Assembly (NCBI GenBank): GCA_960531495.1
Contig: OY482848.1
Location: 11,662,565 to 11,726,564, forward strand
Length of the DNA stretch: 64,000 nucleotides
DNA from: Zeus faber
Taxonomy: Eukaryota > Chordata > Actinopteri > Zeiformes > Zeidae
Direction: 5' to 3'
Shown here: positions 50,301 through 53,300 of the stretch, one piece after another
How positions within the stretch are numbered: the first letter of the stretch is position 1
Layout of the letters: each line of letters starts with the position of its first letter
Position numbers and translations under genes: made by a program
Notes under the pieces: generated by a model
Told to the model about the DNA's origin: nothing
The model's input: only the letters and a program-made list of their open reading frames with translations
Databases searched by the model: none

Positions 50301-53300
50301 CCAGGAGCTTGAGGCTGAGAATCAAAGTCTGCAAGCGGCCCTGGAGGAAATGCGCATCTCCTCGCGCCGCCTGGAGCAGCTGGAGAAGGAGAAGCAGAGC
50401 CTTGAACAGGAGAGCTCGACCCTGGAGAGAGACAGGCGACGGCTGGAGAAAGAGAACCGCAGACTCCGCCAGCAGGTAGAACAGCCGACCAATCGTTTTT
50501 AGGTGTGAGGTAGTATACCGCAATGTGGCAGCGTCACTAGGGAATTCTTGTTTATACTTACTGTACTCATCTCTCCTAGGTGGAAATCCAGGAGGCCACC
50601 TTGGACGGCAGTAATGTCCAAGTGGCCGGTCTGGAGAGAGAGACGCGCTCTCTGGGGAAGGAGGTGGAGGGGCTGAGGGAGACCGCCGAGAGGGTCAAGG
50701 GCCTGGAGAGAGACAACAGGGAAATGGTGAAACAAGCTGCTATCGACAAGAGGACCCTGGCCGCCCTCAGAGAGGTGAGACAACAGCATTATCCAAAAAT
50801 GTGTAGTATTCCATGTACAGAACTATATAGAGACATACACACAAAATACATGTTCATTTAACCACCCCACTGTAGGAGCTGGTGAATGAGAAGCTGAGGA
50901 CGCAGCAGAGGGACAATGAGCTTGAGAAGCTGGCCCATGAGCTGGAGATGAGGGTTCTGAACCAGGACTGTGCACAGCAGACGGAGCAAGAGGCACCGGG
51001 CAGGTACTAATATACAACTTGCACCGAACGTAGGTTTAATAACGGTGTAAAAAAAAGGCAGTAAACCTGAATCCATAATCCAAACTGAAGTACATTATTT
51101 CGGCACGTTTCCCAAAAATAAAATGTGCAATGTTTCTGAGTATTGAAATTGGCCGTGGTGATAATTCTGCAGCTGGCTTACAGTAAAATATTTGCTCTTC
51201 ACTGTAGCAGGTTCAAGATGTTGGAGTCAGAGTTTGAGTTGTCCCTGAAGAGATCCCTCCAGATAAAAGAGGACAAGATGACCGCCCTGGAGCTCCGGCT
51301 GCAGGAATCCTCTGCCCTCAACCAGCAGCTTCGCCAGGAGATCAAGAGCGTGAGTTAGATCACAAAGATCAGGCTTGTGGGTATATTTGTCAGTCAACTA
51401 ATTGTTCTTAGGGACATAAGGATATAATAATATAATAATTCTGCCATTGCATACCGTGCTAACGGGTTTCTGTTCATTAACAAAAATAATTATTCAACAC
51501 CATATCAAAGACAGCTAGTTGAAGTTTGCTGAGAATTTCCATTAAAGTAAAAAAAATAAAAAATAAAAAAATAAGTAAAAGACAGACTAATATAAACATA
51601 AAATGACTGAATAAATTGAGCTATTTATTTTATTATAATTGTTTGTGTGTGTTGCAACGGCCGGGCTGGCACACTGAAAGCATAAAGTTACGCCTCGTGT
51701 ACGGGCCCCAAAATGATCAGATCCGTCCCTGGGCTTGTAAGTTCTGCCCAACCTTGAAGTGTCATAGGTTTTAGGTTTAGGTTTTGACGTCAGAACAGTG
51801 TGAGTACAAAGTGTCATTGAAATAGTTGGGCATTAGCCTCAGCTAATATTTGCGATTTTGCTCCTGGTTATTGTTTATCACATAGGTAAGGCTGAACTAT
51901 GAGGCCTTGCAGCAAAGGGAGGAGGAGGAGAGGAGGGCTTCAGTCGGTGCCGCCCCAAAGGAAGCTGGGAAGGAGGTGAACGAATGGCAGCGCGAAAGCC
52001 AGGAAGCTACCAAAGAGCTGCTGAAGGTCAAAGACCGCCTCATCGAAGTGGAGCGAAATGTAAGAGGCGGTTCCAAGGATTGGAACATGAAAAAAATTAT
52101 TCATGTTTTCTCAGATGAATAACTGCTAATGAACTACGAAATAAAGTGTCCATAGGCGAGGTTTCTCTGCTCTGCTATACAGTACATATCCCTCCATTTC
52201 TGTCCACATTTACTTTCATCCTTTTCTCCACTGTCCTCTCTTGTCCTGCATCGTATTACCACAGAATGCAACCTTGGAGGCCGAGCGTCTGGCGGTGCAG
52301 GCCCAGTTGAAGCAGCTGGAGAGTCAGTGTGAGAGCCAGCAGGCCCAGGTCCTGGCCCTGCAGAGGCAGACCGCCTCGCTGCAGGAGAACAGCACCACCC
52401 TGCAGACTCATAATGCCAACCTGCAGGTACATCTATGGTGCCCTCTGACCTTAGGCACACAAAGGGCTCTTTTGCTTTTCAAATTGTGGCGTATTCCCAA
52501 AGATATCTTACTTATCCATTTTTTTTTTCTCCACAGGTGGAGAAGTCCACTCTGAATTCCCAGAGCGCTTCCCTCATGGCCCAGAACGCCCAACTCCAGC
52601 ACCAGCAGTCCGGGGTGGAGAGCGAGCGGGACGGCGCCTTACGGGAACGCGACGAGCTGCGCGGCGTCCACGAGCAGCTTTTGCGAGACCACGAGCGCCT
52701 GGCAGCGCTGCACGAGAGGCAGGCCATGGAGTGCGAGGCCTTGATGGGGAAACATGGCTGCCTGAAGAACGTCCACCGCACGCTGGAGCTGGAGCACCGC
52801 ACACTGCAGGACCGGTGAGTGGTAGTGAGGTAAACAATATACATACAAGTATAGTATACACAATAATTACCAACGTTGATGGTTCGGCTTCCATCCCGTT
52901 ATACACAGGTACAACGGTCTTCTGAAGCAGCGGACCAAGCTGGAGGACCTGGAGAGAGCCCTGAAGGAGGAGCAGGAGAAGATGGCCCTAGAGAAGGAGC
53001 AGCACAGGACCACCGCTGCCGAATGCCGCAGGCTCTGTGATGAGAAGGACTGGTGAGGAAGCACAGAGGCGCGCACCCGCACACACACACACACGCACGC
53101 GGGCACACACACACACACACAGACACACACACACACACACACACACGCTGGAGCATCAGGGTCTGGATCTGGCTGAGTAGATGCCGGTTTTCCTCTTCTA
53201 AGTTGCCTTTCAACTGAGTCAGCAGCTAGGTCACACACACACACACACACACACACACACGCCCAAACAAAATAATACACCTACTGTACAAAAAAGCATA

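Follow-up and report, generated by a model that had tools for sequence, protein, structure and literature searches.

An inverted copy of an exon start and its splice acceptor in a neighboring intron of a CCDC88-like gene of Zeus faber

Which described systems come closest to a stretch of exon copied, in inverted orientation, into a neighboring intron of the same gene? In the AC/GU-bridged introns of fish, reportedly described by Lin et al. in 2016, AC repeats near the donor and GT repeats near the acceptor occupy the same intron, and CFTR exon 9, with TDP-43, is said to be a case of a UG-repeat acceptor. The locus that we describe here in Zeus faber shares with CFTR exon 9 a UG repeat directly before the acceptor, but its tract is much longer and is not followed by a U run, and the likeness is one of sequence alone. 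The AC/GU-bridged introns, as reviewed in the sections cited here (PMC9198270, PMC7404189), also have complementary CA and GU tracts near donor and acceptor, whereas at our locus the tracts lie in two introns spanning an exon, and the predicted stem passes the AG into the exon. Inverted intronic repeats are tied to exon skipping or circular RNA in sections of the same sources (PMC9198270, PMC7404189); the arms at our locus likewise flank an exon (exon 22), but they are made of an exon-plus-acceptor segment, and one of them lies over the splice site.

A second set of likenesses lies in mutation. Template switch mutations creating RNA hairpins have been described (Monttinen and Loytynoja 2022, PMC8794818), in which, as we propose for our locus, one-step reverse-complement copying of nearby DNA gives rise to a stem. 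In the sections cited, these are local stems of RNA genes, the largest rRNA pattern (up to 59 bp) having failed the authors' quality control, whereas the arm described here is 122 bp long, has its source 853 nt away, includes an exon start and its acceptor, and has one switch in a microsatellite. A short stretch is likewise copied from a nearby template in the short-range switches described for great apes (PMC7954356) and in templated insertions made by MMBIR (PMC8421209); in comparison with the events in the cited parts of those papers, the present copy is inverted, has repeat homology at one end, and is read from the present-day sequence of one genome. In the literature on template switching, templated insertions, intron-exon complementarity, and inverted copies, we recognized no inverted exon-plus-acceptor copy in a neighboring intron among the matches listed, which is no proof of absence.

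The window (the whole 64-kb stretch of DNA analyzed) contains a coiled-coil gene whose exons 21, 22, and 23 lie on the plus strand in a single frame leading into exon 24; the exon numbers are those of a first-pass annotation made from the sequence. Because Pfam gave exons 22-24 no more than two weak matches (HALZ and Mod_r, both below the curated cut-offs), the name Girdin/CCDC88, taken from that annotation and from what is known of the human protein, is provisional for this gene. Intron 21 starts at 53053, and the features that matter here are as follows:

52909 to 53052, plus strand: exon 21, whose reading frame runs on into exon 22
53062 to 53146, plus strand: interrupted (CA)n tract just after the intron-21 donor, the left flank of the copy
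53148 to 53225, minus strand: inverted copy of the first 78 bp of exon 23, with 4 mismatches
53226 to 53262, minus strand: copied acceptor (GACCTAG on the minus strand) and copied (GT)n, read as (CA)n on the plus strand
53489 to 53675, plus strand: exon 22, 187 bp, wholly within the predicted loop
54066 to 54160, plus strand: (GT)47 tract directly 5' of the exon-23 acceptor
54161 to 54166, plus strand: end of intron 22 with its AG acceptor, buried in the predicted stem
54167 to 54312, plus strand: exon 23, 146 bp, the first 78 bp of which are the source of the copy
55326 to 55419, plus strand: exon 24, starting TGACAAG, its end set by the donor GGTGAAC and a paralogue match

What exactly was copied? 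The first-pass annotation had read 53148-53225 as the reverse complement of 54167-54244 with four mismatches, running on through the exon-23 acceptor into its GT repeat and set between two (CA)n tracts. Direct alignment agrees, placing the mismatches at exon positions 54174, 54175, 54187, and 54208; CA tracts are found on both sides; and BLAST extends the match to a 122-bp inverted repeat (53148-53269 against 54123-54244, 94.3% identity, E 5.84e-48) that comprises the first 78 bp of exon 23, the acceptor GACCTAG, and the adjoining (GT)n. The single Ser-to-Thr change claimed for the copied codons also stands, as 1 of the 26 residues differs between the translated 78-bp arms. The end of the copy had been placed at 53240, but the arm actually ends near 53262-53269, and of the earlier statement that copy and exon lie about 1 kb apart in opposite sense, the orientation holds, while the exact distance between the two arms is 853 nt.

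This pair is the sole non-self inverted pair of at least 50 nt in the window (BLAST, E 1e-5, low-complexity masking on). A 27-nt probe derived from the copy matched, with up to 3 mismatches, the two arms only, and shuffled controls gave 0 of 100 matches; chance origin is rejected by these controls and by the BLAST E value. Against the whole 803-Mb assembly of the same animal, the 78-bp query gave two matches, copy and exon, which rejects a dispersed repeat within a search that skips simple repeats and very common words. A retrocopy or processed pseudogene is rejected by the intronic acceptor and GT tract present in the copy, and because these are included, the copy was made from DNA and not from mRNA. 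Rfam gave no match at gathering score and a tRNA scan no hit in the 64 kb, and a search for relatives in viral contigs returned 20 pattern stretches, none of which was confirmed.

How might the copy have arisen? A reverse-complement match to a nearby source with differing flanks is the pattern of an inverted templated insertion, or template switch mutation. At the left junction the copy reads CACACG/CTGGAG against GGTT/CTGGAG in the reverse complement of the exon, with about 1 bp or less of shared sequence, and the right junction falls within the CA/GT repeat; homology at the switch points, measured against the present-day tract and not the pre-insertion one, is thus repeat at one end and at most 1 bp at the other. 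The microsatellite-linked inverted duplication proposed earlier fits this anatomy, in which one junction lies inside the CA/GT repeats and the acceptor was copied as well. In the mechanism that we propose, DNA synthesis on the CA tract of intron 21 would have produced a new strand with a (GT)n end. This end would have annealed to the complementary CA strand at the GT tract of intron 22, been lengthened across the acceptor and the first 78 bp of exon 23, and switched back to the CA tract, where it shared little sequence or none. A 122-bp inverted repeat with the entire exon 22 in its loop would be the outcome. Both the single event and the replication mechanism are inferred from the anatomy, and two sequential events would fit that anatomy as well as one.

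Is a comparable copy present elsewhere in the gene family? A genome search found three further CCDC88-like paralogues, on C16, C13, and C10, and none of these three loci showed exon 23 copied in inverted orientation. In 140 kb, with 5,200 N, inverted pairs of at least 50 nt numbered 1 in C16, not within 3 kb; 0 in C10; and 11 in C13, two of them within 3 kb and neither overlapping exon 23. Intron 21 of the C16 paralogue has neither the copy nor the CA tract, and C16 is too distant to show the insertion event. As a separate observation, intron 22 of the C13 paralogue contains a 32-nt inverted pair at 94% identity (locus L016, reverse strand, 3951-3982 and 5215-5246), whose second arm lies ~85 nt before the GT tract and which has no exon sequence inside.

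Does the copy change the predicted folding of the pre-mRNA around exon 23? In a 1.3-kb thermodynamic fold (53000-54330), which favors long stems and ignores proteins, helicases, and co-transcriptional splicing, the minimum-energy structure has 117 pairs between 53080-53269 and 54060-54250, and in-register pairing of copy and exon has a mean probability of 0.947. The energy of the arm duplex is -229.2 kcal/mol. The unpaired probability of the acceptor (54160-54172) is 0.0002 with the copy and 0.32 with the copy deleted, and when the 78-base core was shuffled ten times it was 0.319-0.335 every time. The long hairpin that the first-pass annotation had proposed over the 3' splice site and half of exon 23 is in this way recovered in silico, as a prediction. 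Openness of the intron-21 donor in the fold is 0.695 with the copy versus 0.187 without it.

The CA and GU tracts contribute to this structure in their own right. The expected number of CA-GU tract pairs is 92.9 when the copy is deleted versus 31.0 when it is present, and the unpaired probability of positions 54158-54170 is 0.0 with the copy, 0.272 without it, and 0.511 when the CA tracts are removed as well. Because the tracts pair without the copy and removal of CA opens the acceptor further, part of any effect would not be due to the copy. In the fold, the tracts alone pair across exon 22 and cover part of the acceptor; what the copy is predicted to add is a stem through the AG and into the exon.

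What would such a stem mean for the transcript? As long as intron 21 has not been removed from the pre-mRNA, the copy may anneal to the acceptor of exon 23, in competition with recognition of that site. Complementary arms flank exon 22 with its splice sites in the loop, which is the structure of a circRNA-forming inverted repeat. When exon 23 is skipped alone, GAG is joined to TGA, so that the first codon past the 22-24 junction is a stop; the frame disruption previously noted for loss of this 146-bp exon is correct. When exon 22 is skipped alone, two Cys codons are followed by TGA. Skipping of both, which the earlier account did not contain, removes 187 + 146 = 333 nt, keeps the frame, and changes Trp to Cys at the junction. 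Low-level by-products would then be expected in the form of exon-23 or exon-22 skipping, each with a stop at once or nearly so, of in-frame double skipping, or of back-spliced exon 22. These RNA outcomes, skipping and back-splicing alike, are inferred from the modeled structure.

Taken together, we consider it probable that the copy is a single local inverted templated insertion that, in the pre-mRNA, competes with the exon-23 acceptor, gives low-level by-products, and is itself probably unselected. The likeliest description is a templated insertion that is neutral or slightly disruptive and has the potential to affect splicing.

How common are GT repeats at the acceptors of these genes? The exon-23 acceptor, (GT)47 followed by GACCTAG, has the sequence of a UG-repeat acceptor, and its pyrimidine content over 25 nt is 52%, versus 68-88% at four other acceptors compared. 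In all four paralogous genes found, the one in the window (C4) and those at loci L005, L007, and L008 (on C16, C13, and C10), the homologous exon is preceded by a GT tract, 22 to 132 nt in length, at a distance of 3 to 22 nt. Using alignment starts as a proxy for acceptors (65 rows from the four genes, all kept, at least 2 of which, C16 local 27088 and 28171, resemble continuing coding sequence), a GT run of at least 6 units lies within 80 nt upstream at 11 of 65 sites, 4 of 4 at exon 23 versus 7 of 61 elsewhere. The enrichment at exon 23 (Fisher P = 0.0005; P = 0.003 with the window's own site set aside) was noticed post hoc, and exon 23 was not chosen blindly. Since, judged by the number of such tracts, ~0.24-1.4% of positions fall within 30 nt after a GT tract, 7 of 61 suggests that these tracts are common at the acceptors of these genes. 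Dinucleotide tracts near acceptors in this genome are not only GT, because CA runs lie upstream in 3 of the 65 rows (45900 and e20 in C10, and 51206 in C16), the one at C10 exon 20 directly at the acceptor. Possibly the UG-repeat acceptor at exon 23 has been long retained, or a GT tract has regrown at a permissive site. The matches listed for CCDC88A with TDP-43 and splicing included no paper on this exon, as far as the sources were represented there; the isoform of human Girdin treated in the cited part of PMC8042451 is another one, lying downstream of exon 31.

Could the repeats themselves, and not the copy, be what matters? A fish-type AC/GU RNA bridge might span exon 22, with the copy an accident inside it. 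A CA tract does follow the intron-21 donor and a GT tract does precede the intron-22 acceptor, the 92.9 CA-GU pairs expected once the copy is deleted are in keeping with a bridge, and AC/GU structures at fish intron boundaries have reported effects on splicing (in the sections cited of PMC9198270 and in section 4.1 of PMC7404189). However, in the class so far described a single intron carries both repeats, whereas here they are spread over two: intron 21 has CA at its donor and no GT at its acceptor, and intron 22 has GT only. Because intron 22 has no AC run of at least 4 units in C4, C16, or C13, and the one 4-unit AC run in C10 is far from the donor, this intron falls outside the two-ended class. 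A bridge here would, moreover, favor loss of exon 22 and a stop, and we regard this reading as unlikely. A separate intron of the C16 paralogue (locus L021, ~900-1290) has GT tracts at both ends, one immediately following the donor of exon 20 and one ahead of the acceptor of exon 21.

Might the copy instead be a functional self-antisense splice lock, the stem shutting the exon-23 acceptor in some tissues or stages to give early-stop transcripts or an isoform without exons 22 and 23? Complete occlusion of the acceptor in the fold, a stop at once or after two codons upon either single skip, an in-frame double skip, and the single differing residue among 26 would all suit a lock. Yet so few residue changes are also compatible with chance, the simulated probability depending on which changes are assigned to the copy: 0.084 if a double change and two single ones, 0.056 if four single changes, and 0.27 if one double and one single change. 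Coding constraint on the copy is therefore unsupported, and no inverted copy was found at exon 23 of the paralogues. The copy is probably not maintained by selection, and a functional lock is decidedly improbable. Harder still to credit is a broader scheme that starts from two microsatellites, the UG-repeat acceptor (taken to be long retained) and the CA tract in the intron before it. From this pair the exon start would have been copied in inverted orientation into the neighboring intron, so that one mutation made a self-antisense lock closing the acceptor and switching between full-length, early-stop, and in-frame forms, the last without 111 coiled-coil residues.

Did the two arms diverge after copying? 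The Ser codon is AGC in the exon and in C16, AGT in C13, and ACT in the copy, while C10 has ACC (Thr, like the copy); the Arg codon is CGA in the exon, CGG in both the copy and C16, and CGT in C10, with a His codon in its place in C13. Position 54187 gives no polarization, since the base there in all three paralogues differs from both arms. With polarization resting mainly on one paralogue, C16, it is probable that the copy acquired the double change at adjacent bases and that the exon acquired one of the synonymous changes, and the comparison suggests changes on both branches. This bears on the prospect of an assembly or read-folding artefact, which would be understandable given that long GT and CA tracts are difficult to assemble: because the copy differs from the exon at four bases, neither flank matches, and the exon itself has probably changed, judged by a paralogue, an exact-copy duplicate is unlikely, and an artefact of any kind is very improbable.

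A UAG context is favorable for ADAR. That the copied acceptor mainly makes an ADAR substrate, with editing of A54165 (UAG) turning the AG acceptor into IG, is the least probable reading of all, despite a 122-bp duplex with A54165 and A54193 in UAG context among the 27 A of the exon arm, and the human CCDC88A inverted-Alu hairpin with an editing site (in the cited part of PMC10491258) is of unrelated origin because that site lies within an Alu.

The copy thus looks real and, though unusual, can be explained as an inverted templated insertion, for which the fold predicts a strong effect on a single acceptor. It offers a readable case in which one replication slip between complementary microsatellites may yield a long antisense element against a coding exon and splice site of the same gene; if the RNA effect is true, the path from repeat pair to splicing switch would be direct and would take one step. 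The recurrence of GT-repeat acceptors at one exon in four paralogues raises a separate question, namely for how long a splice signal can persist in the form of a microsatellite.

Several other features lie in the window. A perfect 88-bp palindrome without a spacer (42977-43064) is found at this sole place in the genome; instability is expected of palindromes of this kind, so this one may be of recent origin or may have been produced by the assembly. The stretch 46709-47545, which we take to be a Tc1/mariner-type transposon remnant, matches C13 DNA at 50-84% protein identity in several frames, both lying inside introns of CCDC88-like genes; Pfam found no match on one 43-aa piece of it. Neighboring coding stretches match, by Pfam, the CEP170 C-terminus (17015-18502, E 5.8e-58), a PLD-like domain (33705-34004, E 3.4e-16), and DUF938 (60724-61104, E 1.6e-18), and a long degenerate AGT-type tandem array with an 18-bp period and ~26 copies occupies 8006-8475.
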